Source: an uncultured Lachnospiraceae bacterium
Lineage (GTDB): Bacteria > Bacillota_A > Clostridia > Lachnospirales > Lachnospiraceae
NCBI GenBank assembly: GCA_947564305.1
Contig: CANOBT010000224.1
Location: forward strand, 1 to 7,651
Direction: 5' to 3'
DNA: 7,651 nt
Part shown: positions 1 through 7,651 of the stretch, one piece after another
Position numbering within the stretch: position 1 is the stretch's first letter
Layout of the letters: each line of letters starts with the position of its first letter
Made by a program: the position numbers and the translations under genes
The notes under the pieces: model-generated
Told to the model about the DNA's origin: nothing
Seen by the model: only the letters and a program-made list of their open reading frames with translations
The model's database searches: none

Positions 1-37
1 ATCCAGATGCTCCAAGCGAAGAGCCTTGATATCACCT

Positions 38-331
38 TCACCGAGGAGCCACCGGGTGAATATAGACAGTATCTTTCTTGCGCAGCTTTCTCAGGAAAAT
101 CTCAATGTTGTTATTAGGGTGTTCTATCATTAGATGGACATCCAGCGGAGTTTTAGTAGCTGATGCAATGTAAGACATATCATTTATAGACATCGCAAAA
201 TTCGGTACGTAACGTCCATCCATGATATCTATATGGAAAGAATCGATACCGCCGCTTTCCAGGTTCTTAACTTCTTTCTCCAAATTTCCATAATTGGCAC
301 ACATCATAGATGCCATTAATTCAAACTGCAT
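38..331 (-). CDS. rpe: Ribulose-phosphate 3-epimerase family protein, N-terminal part (frame broken)
   Basis: The product resembles the N-terminal half of the ribulose-phosphate 3-epimerase TIM barrel, which interconverts D-ribulose 5-phosphate and D-xylulose 5-phosphate in the cytosol. Visible family motifs are 'ASMMCANYGNL' near residues 7-17 (usual form APSIL.AD), 'HIDIMDG' at 33-39 with metal ligands H33 and D35, 'VPNF' at 42-45, and 'DVHLMIE' at 64-70 with ligand H66. 'VYIHP' at 89-93 is the strand usually followed by E(A/S)(D/E). Family members are about 210-230 residues, but this frame stops at codon 98 with TGA, before the second catalytic Asp and the phosphate-binding loops. Past the stop, another frame reads 'DIKALRLE', weakly like the expected 'KIKALGLEPG', so a frameshift or small deletion near 35-55 is plausible. 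The ATG at 331 has a purine-rich ribosome-binding site 9 nt upstream. It lies 41 bp after the HAD gene. A role in making an activated pentose/pentulose for the glycan, rather than central metabolism, is inference. Confidence 0.82.
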   Translation of the reverse strand: MQFELMASMMCANYGNLEKEVKNLESGGIDSFHIDIMDGRYVPNFAMSINDMSYIASATKTPLDVHLMIEHPNNNIEIFLRKLRKKDTVYIHPVAPR

Positions 332-340
332 ATATATCCA

Positions 341-350
341 TTCCTTTCCT
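341..350 (-). promoter_or_regulatory. Ribosome-binding site of the epimerase-like gene
   Basis: On the minus strand this reads AGGAAAGGAA, ending 9 nt before the ATG at 331. It supports that ATG as a real start inside the operon rather than a chance in-frame Met. Confidence 0.6.
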
Positions 351-372
351 TTCGCTTGGAGCCTAATGTTCC

Positions 373-2460
373 TTAAATAAGTTCTTTTATATCTGTCATC
401 CGATTAAAAAAAGGGTCCTCTACAATCAATTCCTGAAAATCTTTGTCCGAAATCTTTAGATTATGAATTAATCCTAGAAACGTCTCATCTAACCGCTTAC
501 TTCGGCTTTCCATATTTGCAGGCAAAAGTTTTAGATATCTGCCAAAATAATCCAGGATTCCTGCCTGCGCCTGCATAACACATCTGATATCTTTTTCTTT
601 CCGAGTTTCTTTCACAAACACTGGATTTCCCCTGTCATCAAATCCCCATACACATGGATGTGGGGCAGTCAAAACTGTCTCCAGAACATAATAATTATCA
701 TAAATACTGCTTCCATCCGTCTCATCTATATCATAAAAAGACTCTATATCAAGCCCCCTATCCTTCATGAAGTATGCTTCAAGCTGCAAAAAATACATAC
801 CTTTCAGACGATGCGCAGCAAATCTCTCTACATACATCTGTGTCGTCCCCTTTGCCACAAAATCAAAAAAAGCCACATCTCCGCCTTTTAGAGCCAATTT
901 CTCTATATATTTCATATATTTTTCCCGCTCATTCACGGCTTGTCTTAAAATATCATCCTTATATCTAAGCAGGTCAGTCTCCTTCTTGTCCCACCGCTTG
1001 GCATTCCCACCCTTCTTTTCAGTCCTTCCACACTCTAATCCAAACCGCGCTTTCAGATTTTCTTCCAATGTACCGCTGAATCTCATACTATCCACGTAAA
1101 CAATATCTTCCTCGTTCATCATACCTGCCCGAACTGCCGCCATCCTTGAAGTCAGAAAATACACGGTATCTGCATTTTTATCCAGCATCTGGTACATCTT
1201 CTGCAGAAGATATCCGTCCCTTGCGCTAAACCAGATATTATGCAATCCATAATGCTGCACTCTTTCCCGAAACCAGAACACAAAATCCGTGATGATTGGT
1301 GCGCAGAGTAAATAACCGATATCATAAGCATCAGATACCTCGATTTTCTTTTTGGCTGTCTCGAACTGAAAGGGATCATTAAACAGTTTTGCTGAAAACA
1401 TTCCCACCTTCAATCGCTCTGCTAAACTGTCTGAATCCATTTCCAATCCCATGTTTCCAACCGCATCCAGCAAATCCTCTTTGCTAAATATACGATATGT
1501 ATCCATTCCTTTTTTTAACGCCATCTCCATATCTGTGATAAGATCGTCGCCAATATGCAGATATTGTTTTTCTCCTTCAAGTTCCAATAACTTATCGAAA
1601 AGATGTTGTCTTTTCCCTGTGTTATACTCGCAGGATACCAAAAGACCCGTATATCCTGTCAACAGACATTCCCTCAATATCTGTTCTATCTGTGTCTTTG
1701 TGTAATAGGTATCAGTCACGATATAGACAGCCTTCTTTTTCTGAATACAATATTTGTACGCCTCACAAACTGCCTCTCTTCTTAAAAGCGTCCTGCAATC
1801 AATCTCCCACTCCAGTTCTGCTAATTCGCCGGCCGAAACACAAACCCCCTGTGTACATTTCAAGACCTCCTTATATAATCGCTCAAGCGTCGGAGCCCCT
1901 TCATCCGACAGCCTCTTTTCTGCTTCCAGACGCTTAGAAGGAAACTGGTCAATGTAGATATCTTTCATCTTTAGCGCACTATCCATGAGTTTAATGATAT
2001 CAGACGAAAATAATACTTCACGCAAAATAAGAGTATCAAAAAGATCAAAGCTGATCACTTCTGCTTTGTCTATCTTTTTATATAGCTCATCTTTCGTCTC
2101 TCCCTTCATATGCATAAAGCTATATGTAATGCTTTCTCTTTCCAGAAGATTTTTCCCCCTAATGTCCATAAGAGCAATTCCGCATTCTGAACAGATATCC
2201 CCGATTTTCCCGGCAATCGCTTTGCAGGAACCCGGACGTGCAACGACAATAATAAGCTTCACACCTGCTTCAACCACATAAGACAGAGATACAATTTTTT
2301 TGCCGTACAGTTCCCCCTCTTCACGGAAGCTGTCCAACAGACCAAGGATTTCAAATCTGTCCTCCAACGAAAGAAGTGCTCCTTTTGTCTCCGTACCAAG
2401 ACCATACAGGGCAGTTTTTTCCCCGATATATTTTTGAAATGGTTCATTTATCCCAGACAT
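373..2460 (-). CDS. HAD-superfamily protein with N-terminal Rossmann-like module (COG5610-like)
   Basis: I numbered residues from the ATG at 2460 (695 aa). A GTG three codons upstream is in frame, but it lies inside the AAGGAAGTG ribosome-binding site, so the ATG is preferred. Residues 18-105 form a Rossmann-like module ('YGLG' at 19-22, 'LLDSF' at 41-45, 'LIIVVARPG' at 69-77). Residues 133-325 are a HAD domain: motif I 'FDLFDTL' with nucleophile D139, motif II 'VTDTYY' at 248-253, a basic 'TGKR' near 281-284, and motif IV 'GDDLITD' with D305, D306 and D310. The +2 general-acid Asp of motif I is replaced by F141, as is usual for 'FDIFDTL' HAD proteins of polysaccharide loci (COG5610). The C-terminal half has 'FSARDGYLL' near 411-419 and 'FFDFVAKGTTQ' near 531-541; I recall similar motifs in this family but cannot assign a function. 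There is no signal peptide or membrane segment. A phosphatase or phosphotransferase role on sugar or polymer phosphates is inference. It starts 22 bp after the GT4 gene. Confidence 0.85.
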   Translation of the reverse strand: MSGINEPFQKYIGEKTALYGLGTETKGALLSLEDRFEILGLLDSFREEGELYGKKIVSLSYVVEAGVKLIIVVARPGSCKAIAGKIGDICSECGIALMDIRGKNLLERESITYSFMHMKGETKDELYKKIDKAEVISFDLFDTLILREVLFSSDIIKLMDSALKMKDIYIDQFPSKRLEAEKRLSDEGAPTLERLYKEVLKCTQGVCVSAGELAELEWEIDCRTLLRREAVCEAYKYCIQKKKAVYIVTDTYYTKTQIEQILRECLLTGYTGLLVSCEYNTGKRQHLFDKLLELEGEKQYLHIGDDLITDMEMALKKGMDTYRIFSKEDLLDAVGNMGLEMDSDSLAERLKVGMFSAKLFNDPFQFETAKKKIEVSDAYDIGYLLCAPIITDFVFWFRERVQHYGLHNIWFSARDGYLLQKMYQMLDKNADTVYFLTSRMAAVRAGMMNEEDIVYVDSMRFSGTLEENLKARFGLECGRTEKKGGNAKRWDKKETDLLRYKDDILRQAVNEREKYMKYIEKLALKGGDVAFFDFVAKGTTQMYVERFAAHRLKGMYFLQLEAYFMKDRGLDIESFYDIDETDGSSIYDNYYVLETVLTAPHPCVWGFDDRGNPVFVKETRKEKDIRCVMQAQAGILDYFGRYLKLLPANMESRSKRLDETFLGLIHNLKISDKDFQELIVEDPFFNRMTDIKELI

Positions 2461-2466
2461 TTTTGT

Positions 2467-2475
2467 CACTTCCTT
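2467..2475 (-). promoter_or_regulatory. Ribosome-binding site deciding the HAD gene start
   Basis: The minus strand reads AAGGAAGTG, one mismatch from AAGGAGGTG, followed by 6 nt and then ATG at 2460. The in-frame GTG at 2469 is part of this element and so cannot be properly served by it. Confidence 0.7.
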
Positions 2476-2482
2476 ATTGTAT

Positions 2483-3871
2483 TTAATGATTGAATATCAA
2501 ACTCATAAGTCTCTCTTCAAAAGCATCCATAGAAAAATATTTTTCATAAACTCTGCGGGCATTATTACCCATTATTTGCAAATCAAATTTCCCCACGATA
2601 CAGTCCTCCAACGCTGACCTAAGCCGGTTTACATTCTCGCTTGGAAATATAATTCCATCGATTCCGTCCCTTATGTATTCTGCCGTGCCTGCAGTATCTG
2701 AAATCAGACAAGGAATGCTGTGCATCATCGCTTCTGCAGCTACGGTAGGCATCGGATCTTCTCTGGAAGGACACACTAAGATATCTGTCTGTTCCAGAAT
2801 GCAGTTTATTTCGTTTCTTCCCACAGGCCCTGAAATGATAATCTCAGAAATATCTTTTGCAGACTCCATGATCTCCTTTGCCAGCAGAGATGTATTTTCG
2901 CCGACAAAGATGAACCGTGCTCTCTTTCTGATCTCTGGATTTAACCTTTGAATGGCTTTCAACAGAATGTCCTGGCCTTTTCTATATTCGATATATCCAA
3001 TGACAGTAAAACACATCTTGTTATGATGTCTTCCTGACTGCACTATTTTACCTACTCTTCTAAATTGATCCGTAACACCATAAAGTAAATATTCCACATG
3101 AAAATCCGGTCTGAATATCTTCAAGGCTTTCTCCGGTATAGGTCCTACGCTCCATATCTTCATATTATGTGACACTAGCTTATCCATCGTTTCCTGACGG
3201 ACTCCATCATAAAAAAAGGGGGCGTCGTGAAGCCACCATGCAACTGGTATCTCTGGTTCTCTCTCCGAAAGAAATACATGAAAATTCATCGTATTGCAGA
3301 TGATAAAATTATACTCCCTGACCCAATCCGATTCTTTCATTGTCGCAATCATCAGATTTTCGTCTATGACTGCCGGTATCCCTTCCCTGGTTAAAATATC
3401 ACGCAGAGGGCCATCCAGCATAGATACATATACCACATGGTATCCTTTTTTAATCAGTGCTTGTGCCGCATGATATAAGGCGATGGCAGGACCTCCCAAC
3501 GTCAAATCATGGCTCAACAACAGAATCTTCTTATTAACTCTGAGATTCCCGGCGTTATCGACACACACTCTTCGACACTTTTTAGAGGGTGTACCAATCA
3601 AATCATGTAAGTCAAAAAAATGATATATCTTCTCTTCACTTACCCCCAAATCAAGCAACTGGACCCTCATCATTTTCACGTAAAAGCTCAAAATAATAAT
3701 CGCATCAAACTCATATTGCAGGACATTTTCTGGTGCAATCACAAGAATATCATCTATATAATAACCCTGTTTCTCTTTTGAATTATCAATCAGAGCAACC
3801 ACATCTTTTTTCTCAAACCAAATCTTATATCGATTATAATATTCGCCTGTGCCAAACAGTAAAAATCTCAT
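2483..3871 (-). CDS. Family 4 (GT-B fold) glycosyltransferase with N-terminal Rossmann-like module
   Basis: The 462-residue product (from ATG 3871) has two parts. Residues 1-92 are a Rossmann-like module: 'FGTGEYY' at 6-12, 'LIDNS' at 27-31, 'ILVIAPENV' at 42-50, 'AIIILSFYV' at 57-65 and 'LGVSEEKIY' at 75-83. From about residue 113 a GT4 glycosyltransferase begins: 'LLLSHDLTLGGPAIAL' at 117-132 is the N-lobe glycine-rich loop, 'GYIEYRKGQDILLKAI' at 292-307 is the conserved R/K-bearing donor loop, and 'CPSREDPMPTVAAEAM' at 367-382 is the nucleotide-sugar binding segment with E371 or D372 and E380. Such enzymes are retaining transferases using a nucleotide-activated sugar at the cytoplasmic face of the membrane; the exact sugar cannot be read from the sequence. 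No membrane segment or signal peptide is present. The gene starts 17 bp after FkbM and ends 22 bp before the HAD gene. An in-frame GTG at 3877 overlaps the Shine-Dalgarno and was rejected as the start. Confidence 0.9.
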   Translation of the reverse strand: MRFLLFGTGEYYNRYKIWFEKKDVVALIDNSKEKQGYYIDDILVIAPENVLQYEFDAIIILSFYVKMMRVQLLDLGVSEEKIYHFFDLHDLIGTPSKKCRRVCVDNAGNLRVNKKILLLSHDLTLGGPAIALYHAAQALIKKGYHVVYVSMLDGPLRDILTREGIPAVIDENLMIATMKESDWVREYNFIICNTMNFHVFLSEREPEIPVAWWLHDAPFFYDGVRQETMDKLVSHNMKIWSVGPIPEKALKIFRPDFHVEYLLYGVTDQFRRVGKIVQSGRHHNKMCFTVIGYIEYRKGQDILLKAIQRLNPEIRKRARFIFVGENTSLLAKEIMESAKDISEIIISGPVGRNEINCILEQTDILVCPSREDPMPTVAAEAMMHSIPCLISDTAGTAEYIRDGIDGIIFPSENVNRLRSALEDCIVGKFDLQIMGNNARRVYEKYFSMDAFEERLMSLIFNH

Positions 3872-3876
3872 CCCCA

Positions 3877-3883
3877 CTCCTTT
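3877..3883 (-). promoter_or_regulatory. Ribosome-binding site deciding the GT4 gene start
   Basis: The minus strand reads AAAGGAG followed by TGGGG and then ATG at 3871, a 5-nt spacing. The alternative GTG at 3877 begins within this element, so the ATG is the better start. Confidence 0.75.
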
Positions 3884-3888
3884 GCATT

Positions 3889-4962
3889 TTAAGGTATGGC
3901 ATACAGAACCATCTCATTATCTGCATTGCTATAGCTTCGGAGGTAAAACTTGTACTCAGAAACTAAAGCTTTCATATAGAGCGGCAGCGTAACAATATCC
4001 TCCGGTTTATGGTAAATACAGATTGCAAGCTTTGGCTTATCTCTTTTTATTATCTTTTCTGCTCCCTTTAATGACTCTAGTTCTGCTCCTTCAACATCCA
4101 TCTTGATAAATGTAATCTTGTCGTGTACATCCACAACATCATCAATAGCTGCTGTTTTTATCGTGCATTTTCCTTCTCCAATATGCGCACATCCATCTGC
4201 TGTTGAAGCAAAAGGCAATTTGGAACTGCAGCTCCATGTCCCATAGGGAAATAGTGATATTTCAGGAAAAGACTCCTTTTCTCTCTCAAGCCTTTTCAGA
4301 CAATTTTCATAATTCTTGGGATCCGGCTCAAATGCATATACCTTCTTCAGACCGCCGCAAAGTTTTGCAAAATCATAGGTCGTACCCAAGTCATAGCATC
4401 CTGCGTCCACAAAAATCTCCTCATCCAAGTAATGTAAAAAGTCCTCATAAAAATAATCATCGCCTGTTCCGCATTTAAAAAATGACCGAATATCCATGAG
4501 TTCCCTTTCTTCAACGCCATGATTAATCAGATATTCTTTCACTTCCTTCATATATTTTGTTGTACATATGACAATCTTTTTTTGCTCTCTCCTCCCGAAG
4601 AGCTCCATTGGCGATATTACCCTGTATCCATAAAAATCCTTTTTTTGCTTCTGAATATCACTGTCACAAAACTCAATTTCCAGGTTACATTCTTTCAGAT
4701 ACGGTATCAGACGTTCCGAAAAACTGCCTGTCCCATAGAACGTAATCTTTATCCCCTCAGGCAGTGTCTTAATGAAATCTTTTTCATCACATCCGTTCCA
4801 TACTGGAATATCCGGATGCGACTTTTTAGCCATATGCTCCACATATCCAAAGTTTCCAGTCACAAGCCAGTTTAGACGGTCAAGATATAGTTCTTTTGAT
4901 AACTGATCCTCAAGCATTTCATAAACATCTTTTAACCCCTGTATGAATTCGTCAGGCTGCAT
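3889..4962 (-). CDS. FkbM-family SAM-dependent methyltransferase with central Rossmann-like module
   Basis: The 357-residue product (from ATG 4962) has three parts. Residues 1-70 are mostly helical, acidic and unassigned. Residues 71-163 are a Rossmann-like module ('FYGTGSFSE' at 75-83, 'FCDSD' at 98-102, 'YRVISPMEL' at 113-121, 'IVICTTKYM' at 130-138). Residues 180-357 are an FkbM methyltransferase: SAM-binding 'EIFVDAGCYDLGTT' at 182-195, 'AFEPDPKNYENC' at 210-221, the hallmark 'IKMDVEGAELESLKGAE' at 286-302, and 'LAICIYHKPEDI' at 312-323. FkbM enzymes typically O-methylate sugar or polyketide hydroxyls, so this one probably methylates a residue of the glycan made here. Two starts compete. 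An ATG at 4992 overlaps the GT8 stop as ATGA but has only AAGG directly abutting it. The ATG at 4962 has GGAGG at 8-nt spacing and is preferred. It would extend the protein by 10 residues if the upstream start is used. Confidence 0.92.
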   Translation of the reverse strand: MQPDEFIQGLKDVYEMLEDQLSKELYLDRLNWLVTGNFGYVEHMAKKSHPDIPVWNGCDEKDFIKTLPEGIKITFYGTGSFSERLIPYLKECNLEIEFCDSDIQKQKKDFYGYRVISPMELFGRREQKKIVICTTKYMKEVKEYLINHGVEERELMDIRSFFKCGTGDDYFYEDFLHYLDEEIFVDAGCYDLGTTYDFAKLCGGLKKVYAFEPDPKNYENCLKRLEREKESFPEISLFPYGTWSCSSKLPFASTADGCAHIGEGKCTIKTAAIDDVVDVHDKITFIKMDVEGAELESLKGAEKIIKRDKPKLAICIYHKPEDIVTLPLYMKALVSEYKFYLRSYSNADNEMVLYAIP

Positions 4963-4970
4963 ACACTTTT

Positions 4971-4975
4971 CCTCC
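4971..4975 (-). promoter_or_regulatory. Ribosome-binding site favouring the FkbM start at 4962
   Basis: The minus strand reads GGAGG, then 8 nt, then ATG at 4960-4962. It lies 26 bp or less after the GT8 stop, so ribosomes finishing GT8 could reinitiate here. Confidence 0.6.
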
Positions 4976-4988
4976 ACATACTTACGTC

Positions 4989-6245
4989 TCATCCTTGCAT
5001 CTTTTTCTCATATTCCATATATTTTTCATCCAGCCTTGCATAATACGTATTGTCTTTATGGATATATCTGATTATCCTGCAATCATTGATTTCCATCTGA
5101 TTTAACTGTTTTTTTATTGGAATAAACCCGTTCTGGCTGCTGATGATATAAAAAGCATTCGGATATTCGTCCTCAAGCCGCGCTGCCGAAATAACCGGAA
5201 TCCCCCGATATGTCATACCCTGTTTTGCCTTATCATTATCGGCAAATGCTGCAATGGATTTTACATTTGACCGAAGCAAATGGTCTGCAACTTTCTTCCC
5301 GATTTCAGAGAATCCAAATACGACAACTTGCTCTGCCTTCTCTGCCATCCCACGTATATATGACCAGTCACTTTTCCGTTCAGCTTCCAAAGCTGCTTCC
5401 CAAATATTGCGGTAAACCGACTCGTCCAACACTCTGCCTGCCTCGTTCCACCACAGTGTATTCACTTTAAGCCTTGTACAGATCCATGGTTTAAAATAAC
5501 CTGTAAAATGCAGCACACAGGCTCTCTCTTCAATATGAGACAACTCTTCCTCTGAATAGCCGTCCGGTGGTTTCTCGGCTATACTTCCATAATATTCTGT
5601 AAAAAAATCATATTTTAAAGGAAGTATTTTTATTTTTCCATAACAGCATTTATTGATAATATCCTGATCCATATATTTGCAGCCTGAGCCTATGGCTTCG
5701 ATCATTCTATGCTCCACATGGTCTTCCCTGATTTTGTTAAGATTAAGAAGCATAAAGCCAACATTCACATAATCGTCCATGGATGGAATATGCAAGATGT
5801 CGGCATATTCCTTATACTCTGACATATGGCTCTGAACCCCCAAATCCTTCACCGCAGCCACATAATCATTCTCCATATCAGTGTTATAAACTTCCGATAA
5901 GTCATCCCTGATTATCATATCCCCGTCAATAAACAGGCATCGTTCTTCCTCTATCATCTGGCTAATATATAGCCTGTAATAGGACGCAACCGAAATATGG
6001 GCTGTTGCGACTGCCTTATCTAGCCTTGAATCATGAATCTCCTTAAAGGTAAACTCAATCCTGCCGTCCTTTTTTTCCAGTTTCTTCAGCATATCCCGGC
6101 AAGCATAATTAAAATTCCGGTCACATAGAATATATACATGAAAGCATGTACCTTTCTTTGAAGATGTTAAAATAGAAGATAACGTCACAAGTGTCGGTAT
6201 GACGTAATTTTCATCGGTTGACATTACAATATTTATTTTCTCCAC
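4989..6245 (-). CDS. Family 8 glycosyltransferase with C-terminal Rossmann-like module
   Basis: The 418-residue product (from GTG 6245) opens directly on the GT8 fold: 'INIVMSTDENYVIPTLV' at 4-20, the 'ASYYRLYI' helix at 87-94, the metal-binding DxD 'FIDGDM' at 105-110 (D107, D109), 'YVNVGFMLLNL' at 159-169, 'DQDIINKC' at 193-200, and 'LHFTGYFKPW' at 245-254. These match the retaining LgtC/glycogenin type, usually UDP-galactose or UDP-glucose dependent with Mn2+, working in the cytosol. After a linker near 280-304 comes a Rossmann-like module: 'VVFGFSEIGKKVADHL' at 308-323, 'FADNDKAKQG' at 334-343, 'GIPVIS' at 348-353, 'FYIISSQNG' at 365-373. A charged helical tail ends the protein. The GTG start has AGGGAG at 6-nt spacing and fits the usual GT8 N-terminus. 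An upstream ATG at 6269, with AGAGG 5 nt before it and overlapping GT2 by 14 bp, would add 8 residues and cannot be excluded. Confidence 0.94.
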   Translation of the reverse strand: MEKINIVMSTDENYVIPTLVTLSSILTSSKKGTCFHVYILCDRNFNYACRDMLKKLEKKDGRIEFTFKEIHDSRLDKAVATAHISVASYYRLYISQMIEEERCLFIDGDMIIRDDLSEVYNTDMENDYVAAVKDLGVQSHMSEYKEYADILHIPSMDDYVNVGFMLLNLNKIREDHVEHRMIEAIGSGCKYMDQDIINKCCYGKIKILPLKYDFFTEYYGSIAEKPPDGYSEEELSHIEERACVLHFTGYFKPWICTRLKVNTLWWNEAGRVLDESVYRNIWEAALEAERKSDWSYIRGMAEKAEQVVVFGFSEIGKKVADHLLRSNVKSIAAFADNDKAKQGMTYRGIPVISAARLEDEYPNAFYIISSQNGFIPIKKQLNQMEINDCRIIRYIHKDNTYYARLDEKYMEYEKKMQG

Positions 6246-6251
6246 AGTACA

Positions 6252-6257
6252 CTCCCT
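6252..6257 (-). promoter_or_regulatory. Ribosome-binding site of GT8 overlapping the GT2 stop codon
   Basis: The minus strand reads AGGGAG, with its first two bases being the last two of the GT2 stop codon TAG (6258-6256). GTG at 6245 follows after 6 nt. This arrangement suggests translational coupling of the two transferases. Confidence 0.55.
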
Positions 6258-7395
6258 ATCCATTTTCATGCATACCTCTTATCAATTCTCCTATGGTCCA
6301 TATTTTTGCATTTAGCTTTTGACTTAATATTTTCCTAACATCCTCTTCATGTTCCACTAGAGATATAATTACCAAATCCACACCAGGCAATGTTTCTTTT
6401 GGTGTGTATATTGGTATGGTTGGTTTTAAATACGGTATGCTTCTGTCTATAAAGTAACAGACCGATATACCCGCCTCTTTTAATGAATTCTCAATCTGTT
6501 TTCCAATAGTTCCGTTTCCATATATTGCTACCTTGTGAAAACCTCTTTTTTTTATGATATCCCAAATCCTTATCCCTCTGTTTTCCTGCTTCAGCCAGTC
6601 ATCATACAAAGTTACCATGTTCCTGAACTTATCGAGAAGCTGTATTTTCCCGAATACTTCTTTCCAAAAAGCCTGCTGCAAATCAGACATTTCCGCATCA
6701 GAAAGCAGTTTAATTTTTCTCACAATCTCTACAACTTCCTGTTCAGACTGAATCATCTTTACCGTTTGAAGAGATGCATTATTTCCATCCATAACATGTT
6801 CAAATAAAATGTCATCATTTAATACAAACTGTTTTCCTTCGCTCAACATACAGAGCCATAGCAGCCAGTCGTCTGCCCCATTATGATGCAGAATATTTTT
6901 CTTCCAGATATCTGAAATTGAATTCTTCCTGATAAGTACCTGTCCTGGAGACACAATTGTATTCCCGTTTCTAATGACATAATTTCTGTCAACCGCATTC
7001 TGAAAGAATCTCTGCTCATCATAGTAAATTTTGCCTCCGTCTACTAATCGACAAACCACTGCATCCCCATCTTTGATTCGGTCCAACTGACTTTTAAGAT
7101 ATAAAGGGAAAATCCGATCATCCTGATCCAGAAATAATACATATTCCCCCTTCGCCTCATTTAATCCATGAACTCTTGCTCCATGGATACCTCGGTTAAA
7201 CTCTGTGTTCAAAATCCTGATATCAACCGTATACGAATATATATCTATTTTGATAGGCGTCAGAGGGTCATCATTGACAAACAATAATTCTGTCTTTGCG
7301 CCTGTAACTTCTGCACAGGCTTCGATTTGATGAATCATCCTCTCTATGTACGGTATTCCTTGATAAACCGGAACAACTACGCTTACTGATACCAA
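6256..7395 (-). CDS. Family 2 glycosyltransferase with C-terminal Rossmann-like module
   Basis: The 379-residue product starts with TTG. There is an in-frame stop eight codons upstream and no in-frame ATG before residue 20, while the first GT2 strand 'SVVVPVYQG' is already at residues 5-13. The GT-A domain shows 'LLFVNDDP' at 37-44 (nucleotide binding), 'NRGIHGARVHGLNEAKGEY' at 67-85, the metal-binding 'FLDQDD' at 88-93, and 'GADDWLLWL' at 173-181, which carries the presumed acceptor-activating Asp. This is an inverting glycosyltransferase using a nucleotide sugar; donor and acceptor are unknown. A helical linker (about 210-284) leads to a Rossmann-like module: 'VAIYGNGTIGKQIENSL' at 288-304, 'YFIDRS' at 314-319, 'IPIYTPKE' at 327-334, 'VDLVIISLVEHEEDV' at 339-353. 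No membrane helix is seen, so it should act in the cytosol on a lipid-linked glycan. It starts 25 bp after the upstream partial gene. Confidence 0.94.
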   Translation of the reverse strand: MVSVSVVVPVYQGIPYIERMIHQIEACAEVTGAKTELLFVNDDPLTPIKIDIYSYTVDIRILNTEFNRGIHGARVHGLNEAKGEYVLFLDQDDRIFPLYLKSQLDRIKDGDAVVCRLVDGGKIYYDEQRFFQNAVDRNYVIRNGNTIVSPGQVLIRKNSISDIWKKNILHHNGADDWLLWLCMLSEGKQFVLNDDILFEHVMDGNNASLQTVKMIQSEQEVVEIVRKIKLLSDAEMSDLQQAFWKEVFGKIQLLDKFRNMVTLYDDWLKQENRGIRIWDIIKKRGFHKVAIYGNGTIGKQIENSLKEAGISVCYFIDRSIPYLKPTIPIYTPKETLPGVDLVIISLVEHEEDVRKILSQKLNAKIWTIGELIRGMHENG

Positions 7396-7403
7396 CGCTT
7401 TTT

Positions 7404-7410
7404 CACCTCT
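7404..7410 (-). promoter_or_regulatory. Ribosome-binding site supporting the TTG start of GT2
   Basis: The minus strand reads AGAGGTG, then 8 nt, then TTG at 7395. It lies between the stop of the preceding gene (7421) and the TTG, and it is the main evidence for this rare start codon. Confidence 0.7.
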
Positions 7411-7420
7411 GATAAATCAC

Positions 7421-7651
7421 TTATACAATCGGGATTTCCTGTGGACGAACCCAGAGCATTCGTTCTCTATGAATCCCTAATGAAGATAACTCGTCCATAA
7501 TCTCATCTGCCATCTCTCTGTTCTTGACTGCGATGAGTATTTTTATATAATCTAAACTCACAATCCGGGCAGGATGTATAATTTTTCTGCCGTCACAGGT
7601 ATTTTTATCAACCCATGATAAAATTTACGTTTTCTTCAATAGGTTTTGTTC
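7421..7651 (-). CDS. 3' end of a glycan-locus gene ending in a Rossmann-like module; apparent frameshift
   Basis: Only the C-terminal part lies in the window. Reading from the right edge, one frame gives 'TKPIEENVNFI' (from 7649) and then hits TGA. The adjacent frame continues 'WVDKNTCDGRKIIHPARI', then 'LDYIKILIAVKNREMADEI', then 'LGIHRERMLWVRPQEIPIV', and stops with TAA at 7421. Joined, they read like one module: hydrophobic strand, WVDKN, a 'P..I' turn, a hydrophobic strand 'IKILIAV', and a 'GI..ER..WV' end, matching the second half of the C-terminal modules in the next two genes. The break lies at 7616-7623, where AAAA on the plus strand (7620-7623) is a natural slip site. A one-base insertion, real or from sequencing error, is the simplest reading. 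The catalytic part, if any, is outside the window; by analogy it may be another glycosyltransferase. The stop is 25 bp before the GT2 start, so it belongs to the same operon. Confidence 0.65.

Follow-up and report, generated by a model that had tools for sequence, protein, structure and literature searches.

The window analysed here is the whole stretch of 7,651 nucleotides from contig CANOBT010000224.1 (positions 1 to 7,651, assembly GCA_947564305.1) of an uncultured Lachnospiraceae bacterium. On its minus strand, longest open reading frame (ORF) calls place five complete genes packed into a compact operon, in which two junctions overlap, by 14 and 4 bases, and two are separated, by 11 and 13. 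The genes encode a GT2 glycosyltransferase, a GT8 glycosyltransferase, an FkbM-type methyltransferase, a GT4 glycosyltransferase and a HAD protein, and the start of a ribulose-phosphate 3-epimerase (Rpe) gene follows. All five proteins carry, at the places described in the initial annotation, the same short Rossmann-type module, hereafter called the tag, and the partial gene upstream shows its second half. Considered together with related loci, this arrangement suggests an undescribed way to hold together or regulate a sugar assembly line in a mouse-gut bacterium and its relatives. The features of the window are as follows.

7424..7615, minus strand: second half of the tag of the upstream GT2 (WVDKN...PIV); the whole gene lies at 5270-6457 in contig L001
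6256..7395, minus strand: GT2 glycosyltransferase with C-terminal tag (Pfam PF00535, 6.6e-20)
6544..6660, minus strand: 'W-helix' extension before the GT2 tag, residues 246-284, common to free tags and to the tags of WbsX and PIG-L
6319..6531, minus strand: Rossmann tag of the GT2 protein, residues 289-359 (YGNGTIG...FIDRS)
4989..6269, minus strand: GT8 glycosyltransferase with C-terminal tag (PF01501, 7.3e-39)
5088..5327, minus strand: Rossmann tag of the GT8 protein, residues 315-394
3889..4992, minus strand: FkbM-type methyltransferase, tag N-terminal to the catalytic domain (PF05050, 1.1e-16)
4504..4746, minus strand: Rossmann tag of the FkbM protein, residues 83-163
2483..3877, minus strand: GT4 glycosyltransferase with N-terminal tag (PF00534, 1.1e-23)
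3626..3862, minus strand: Rossmann tag of the GT4 protein, residues 6-84 (PF22674, 2e-5, under the cut-off)
2161..2412, minus strand: Rossmann tag of the HAD protein, residues 20-103
1360..2079, minus strand: CrpP-like HAD phosphatase domain, residues 131-370 (DLFDT motif at residue 142)
376..1359, minus strand: CriT-like ribofuranosyltransferase domain of the HAD protein, residues 371-698
38..331, minus strand: start of the untagged Rpe gene (PF00834, 8.2e-21), intact in L001 at 13546-14226

A counterpart of the window is found in contig CAJTDD010000014.1 (L001) of a Lachnospiraceae isolate, which matches window positions 48-7617 at 99.7% identity. The full gene order there is GT32-like, GT2, GT2, GT2, GT8, FkbM, GT4, HAD and Rpe, with the GT32-like gene and a further GT2 gene lying upstream of the set seen in the window. 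The initial annotation had counted six consecutive genes with the module; its presence in each of them is borne out, and the number was too low, eight tagged genes standing in a row in L001. Window positions 1-47 and 7618-7651, which have no match in L001, are probably assembly ends; the Rpe and upstream GT2 genes, broken in the window, are complete in L001.

The repeated segments are one homologous Rossmann-type module of about 80 residues. Its likeness to PglD_N had been proposed from the sequence alone, and both profile-profile comparison and structural models of the GT2 and HAD modules agree with that proposal. When alignments from disjoint enzyme families were compared, nine of the ten pairs of window modules scored a probability of at least 90, the exception being GT2-GT4 (35), and the module of the upstream GT2 (GT2b) scored 97-100 against all five. 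Chance likeness of unrelated Rossmann folds was set aside, since five control domains (SDR, nucleotidyltransferase, FkbM catalytic, GT2 catalytic and UGD) reached at most 66 against the modules. In the AlphaFold models of the GT2 and HAD modules, two of the six, the main strands and helices follow in identical order, and the GT2 model (pLDDT 91.4) shows the beta-alpha-beta arrangement, the Gly-rich loop and the acidic residue after strand 2 that characterize a Rossmann unit; a Foldseek search with this GT2 module gave no match at E <= 0.001. The first loop Gly is present in 263 of 265 tags and the second in 224 of 265, and Asp follows strand 2 in 229 of 271, at a residue identity of 13-26% between tags and the first sequence of alignment A1. 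When the eight L001 segments serve as seeds, the resulting profile recovers all eight and 39 further ORFs in the related loci L002-L006. Some proteins contain two tags (L015 12075-14627, L042 13528-15216, L019 772-2274, L024 9202-10668 and L026 1112-2902).

The tag is not distributed evenly among enzyme classes. Class counts were made in 46 loci selected for tags, in which 264 of 629 ORFs are tagged, by grouping ORFs on their non-tag part with BLAST and retaining groups of at least four ORFs; such grouping mixes families (the GT8 group of 22 includes propeller-like proteins), and the class names derive partly from Pfam, run on 197 of the 264 tagged proteins, and partly from sequence reading (TarI, TarJ, CMP-sugar synthetase, UGD and LicD). 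Tags were found in 14/17 WbsX, 14/15 FkbM, 14/15 HAD, 15/17 radical SAM (a group in which all 17 have the Cys motif) and 79/110 GT2/GT4 proteins. None were found in SDR (0/17), nucleotidyltransferase (0/13), TarI/IspD-like (0/8), Rpe (0/7), UDP-GlcNAc 2-epimerase (0/6), CMP-sugar synthetase-like (0/5), UGD (0/4) or APS kinase (0/4) proteins, and the counted precursor-supply proteins were tagged in 0 of 64 cases overall. The kinds of enzyme that carry the tag comprise GT2, GT4, GT8 and GT32 glycosyltransferases, WbsX, FkbM, PIG-L, radical SAM, sulfotransferase-like and ribofuranosyltransferase proteins. Near sulfate-activation genes there are tagged proteins with an NKWYS domain (PF10364), presumably linked to sulfotransferases, or a weak Sulfotransfer_3 match (0.0015). 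In particular clusters, the tag thus marks enzymes acting on the growing glycan, and rarely precursor enzymes. The common ligand that the initial annotation had considered, if it means simple shared binding of nucleotide sugars, fits this rule poorly, because the counted precursor proteins are untagged and the tag instead occurs on methyltransferases, deacetylases, radical SAM and sulfotransferase-like enzymes; general nucleotide-sugar binding was set aside on these grounds.

The tag also occurs as a free protein. Free tags form a family of about 160 residues with a variable N-terminus, a conserved Trp helix and then the tag; 207 homologues were collected, and in the best 120 of these 207 the helix Trp is present in all 120. 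The W-helix immediately precedes the tag in 46 cases, including the window GT2, WbsX and PIG-L, and in no untagged ORF. Within the tag-selected loci (18 WbsX genes), none of the 14 tagged WbsX adjoins a free tag and all four untagged ones do (p 3.3e-4). More generally, neighbours of free tags are untagged in 32/46 cases versus 195/504 for tagged enzymes, a count in which a few ORFs at overlapping locus edges appear twice.

An independent WbsX set was then assembled by PF14307 (60 rows, 59 genes, of which 10 lay in earlier loci and 2 were unfetched), giving 47 genes in 46 loci; 44 of these genes could be recovered as ORFs, and no tag lies in the loci of the remaining three. In the automatic count of these 44, the tag was found in 10/13 WbsX in tagged contexts and 0/31 elsewhere. 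Two corrections were made: one protein counted as 'untagged' does have a tag, at its N-terminus, which was missed because of a >300-residue rule, and for another the sole neighbour with a tag is, by its sequence, an apparent PglD-like acetyltransferase. The figures after correction, which are post hoc because these misassignments were spotted on inspecting the data, are 11 tagged of 12 in tagged contexts, the twelfth adjoining a free tag, and 0/32 elsewhere; over both sets, a free tag adjoins 5/5 untagged WbsX versus 2/25 tagged ones. WbsX in tagged clusters therefore has a tag either in cis or as a free tag next door, with that post hoc qualification for two cases. Of the two options raised in the initial annotation, a docking surface and a common ligand, the ability of the free version to replace the fused tag favours a shared docking or regulatory part.

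Clustering was assessed in genome G001, whose cluster C14 is the window cluster. A module fused at random to such enzymes, with no operon clustering, had been named at the outset as the outcome that would speak against a joint system; the survey found clustering far beyond chance. The tag profile finds 64 copies in G001, 61 of which lie within 10 kb of another, whereas random placement over 2000 trials gave on average 13.6 tags with such a neighbour and never more than 28. GT2 genes in G001 are tagged in 21 of 64 cases, with clusters nearly all-or-none; within-cluster concordance is 0.83 versus 0.55, a value reached in 0 of 20,000 permutations. Recombinational 'stitching' through tag DNA was set aside in view of the low residue identity given above.

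The fold itself is already known from PglD_N, C2185-like_N and the WbaP domain. The best PDB profile match of an alignment of 46 tags is 2g6t (1.1e-8), which we take to be CAC2185, corresponding to PF22674 (C2185-like_N). Against the curated cut-off of 27 bits for that family, the window GT4 scores 25.3 and FkbM 15.5, and GT2, GT8 and HAD give no match at E <= 1. At E <= 0.001, PF22674 picks up 16 of the 197 tagged proteins scanned, and in G001 at E <= 1e-4 it finds 4 places versus 60 for the tag profile; within the class, 3 of 196 genomes contain it, and none of 14 control genomes does. For PF17836 (PglD_N, curated cut-off 23.4 bits), the window GT8 and GT2 score 15.1 and 15.0 and the others give no match, while some tags elsewhere pass the cut-off (33.2 and 29.5 bits). 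PglD-type enzymes consist of a Rossmann unit followed by a hexapeptide acetyltransferase. Unlike PglD, NeuD, PerB and VioB, the tag is borne by many other enzymes or stands alone, and the hexapeptide acetyltransferase domain is absent from the window proteins, four of which have Pfam glycosyltransferase or methyltransferase domains and the fifth Bcs3-type homology. The regulatory domain of large phosphoglycosyl transferases (WbaP) and PglF-type dehydratases (3nkl) is a fold match to the tag, and 3nkl is a profile match; there the domain sits on an initiating transferase or a dehydratase, whereas the tag sits on most transferases of clusters without such an enzyme nearby. An apparent FlaA1/PglF-type dehydratase in an untagged G001 cluster (L073 536-2401) gives a weak match to the tag profile (8.1e-5), hinting at a possible origin of the tag.

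With regard to the acceptor, a lipid-linked surface glycan was set aside as the default, since no gene of the initiating-transferase and flippase families searched was seen near multi-tag clusters. Among the matches listed, inspected by eye, none for PF02397 (phosphoglycosyl transferase, PGT), PF00953 (WecA/TagO-type) or PF01943 (flippase) lies within 10 kb of multi-tag clusters in G001-G006, and the window cluster has no match to these three families, other flippase families and ABC exporters not having been searched. Flagellin, among the matches listed and with kinship ignored, is present in 30 of 30 genomes with at least two detected tags versus 52 of 120 others; a PGT control was found in 148 of 150 genomes among the matches listed. 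Tag counts per genome in this comparison are lower bounds, at most 35 candidates being scored in each (35 of the 64 in G001). Distances to flagellin were taken on 15 contigs, hand-picked since both features were listed there. In G006:C33 and G003:C3, genes for giant flagellins are neighbours of tagged clusters; at L067 1805-6946 and L068 8527-13149, giant flagellins with lengths of 1713 and 1540 residues lie within or adjoin tagged clusters. The ordinary flagellin genes of G001 are flanked by untagged GT2-like pairs of about 675-700 residues (L070 2973-7024 and 14184-18315), which may attach the first sugar to flagellin.

A candidate partner of the tags is a propeller-like protein, mostly of 270-415 residues, with 29 matches, none tagged and one with a weak Pfam propeller match. 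A profile whose seeds came from tagged clusters, checked on three untagged loci as controls, finds it in 28 of the 41 tagged clusters and in none of the 3 controls; in the analysis covering the propeller and lipid-linked questions, the 12 kb threshold was set after the data had been seen and the 2x2 table was drawn up by eye. Examples lie at L055 6114-7196, L059 3342-4526, L061 7350-8531 and L022 3931-5148.

The preferred reading, whose chances are judged about even, is that the tag is a subunit-like element through which a glycosylation line, cytosolic and probably acting on flagellin, is assembled, regulated by nucleotides, or both. The tag would bring the cytosolic transferases together in one assembly line, either by joining them to one another or by attaching them to a partner that is membrane-held or propeller-like, and its retained nucleotide-pocket signature would let the assembly sense a nucleotide by-product, much as the WbaP domain does with UMP. 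The acceptor would not be a lipid-linked chain begun beside the cluster, and would most likely be flagellin, glycosylated before export. The complete form of this proposal is tentative, with chances short of even: the module fused to or co-supplied with nascent-chain enzymes, a free, partly membrane-type copy, a propeller-like scaffold, cytosolic flagellin glycans, and nucleotide by-products sensed by the system as a whole. The WbaP domain, which has this fold, dimerises and senses uridine nucleotides (PMC10942596), and a response regulator acting through a WbaP-type enzyme offers a second precedent (PMC12802240). In a somewhat unlikely alternative, each tag is an independent allosteric sensor that binds a uridine or cytidine by-product and throttles its own enzyme in WbaP-like manner, the free version regulating a neighbour, without any assembly line. 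Replacement in cis or trans and the class rule are best explained by docking, and the conserved pocket by sensing; the two may operate together.

It is improbable that each tag serves as a PglD_N-like substrate domain, binding the donor nucleotide sugar or some portion of the acceptor on behalf of the enzyme that carries it, with the substrates of a cluster sharing a moiety. Kinship to PglD_N and VioB/PerB and the Asp after strand 2 are consistent with such binding; however, glycosyltransferase catalytic domains already bind their donors (textbook knowledge), 43 of the 64 GT2 genes in G001 are untagged, enzymes other than glycosyltransferases are tagged, and a separate protein can replace the tag. 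Neutral spread, in which the module is copied and fused in fast-evolving glycan clusters and clustering reflects ancestry and recombination, not joint function, also has little likelihood. Tags of one cluster can be paralogous, GT2 genes of a single cluster may be kin, and tag position varies (135 C-terminal, 103 N-terminal and 26 internal among the 264), all as such a process would produce; yet the loop and Asp are conserved despite the low identity among tags, and neither the class rule nor the complementarity in cis and trans accords with it.

Several observations weigh against the assembly-line reading. The class rule has exceptions, with 31/110 GT2/GT4, 13/22 of the GT8-containing group and 8/9 LicD proteins untagged, a cytidylyltransferase domain match in 2 of 95 tagged proteins, and 254 ORFs from groups of fewer than four, of which 65 are tagged, left unclassed. 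In the independent WbsX set, the automatic count showed no sign of cis/trans complementarity (1/3 versus 2/10, p 1.0), and 2 of its 11 cis-tagged WbsX adjoin a free tag as well. Free tags occur in 17 of 41 tagged clusters and are absent from the window's own, and the link expected between free tags and W-type tagged enzymes per cluster is absent (p 0.52; 6 clusters with both, 11 with free tags only, 12 with W-type enzymes only and 12 with neither). The N-terminus exceeds a transmembrane-type hydropathy cut in 71 of the best 120 of the 207 free tags and in 13 of 25 in the loci, versus 6 of 282 long tagged proteins, and two of the four free tags adjoining untagged WbsX fail it; because only part of the free tags pass, membrane anchoring is uncertain overall and likely for many. 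As for the acceptor, 10 of the 50 genomes with at least one detected tag, each a single-tag genome and with kinship again ignored, lack flagellin; a crude motif places flagellin inside 5 of the 41 tagged clusters, 4 of these being in the Pfam list, and none near the window operon; and LicD, CDP-glycerol-type and NKWYS enzymes are compatible with a surface polysaccharide too.

Both domains of the HAD protein (window 373-2469) are homologous to the CriT-CrpP ribofuranosyltransferase/phosphatase part of Bcs3, with DLFDT at residue 142 and GDD at residue 307. Compared with Bcs3 (the Hib capsule polymerase) and the Thermobacillus ribofuranosyltransferase 7shg, it is without the CroT part and has a Rossmann tag instead. 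The glycan of the operon probably contains ribofuranose made by the HAD protein from phosphoribosyl pyrophosphate (PRPP).

The literature examined held no description of pathway-wide use of such a tag in cis and trans, coverage mostly excluding subscription journals, so that absence from print is not established; among work on flagellin glycosylation in Lachnospiraceae, no title pointed to a tag of this kind. What keeps soluble bacterial glycosyltransferases in order when there is no lipid carrier is an open question, and a tag carried in cis or in trans across a pathway offers a direct handle on the machine through a single tag. The tag profile flags glycan clusters that would otherwise be hidden, as the comparison with PF22674 in G001 illustrates, links gut Lachnospiraceae with unusual flagellar glycans, possibly ribose-containing and sulfated, and extends the nucleotide-feedback idea proposed for WbaP.

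A PADLOC scan gave two weak matches and nothing further. Directly upstream of the operon lie sulfate-activation genes (CysD-type and CysN/APS kinase) and apparent sulfate ABC transport genes (L055 2031-4767, L001 545-2995), beyond which two tagged NKWYS-family proteins are encoded; comparable sulfate gene sets accompany the tagged clusters C30 and C4 of G001.

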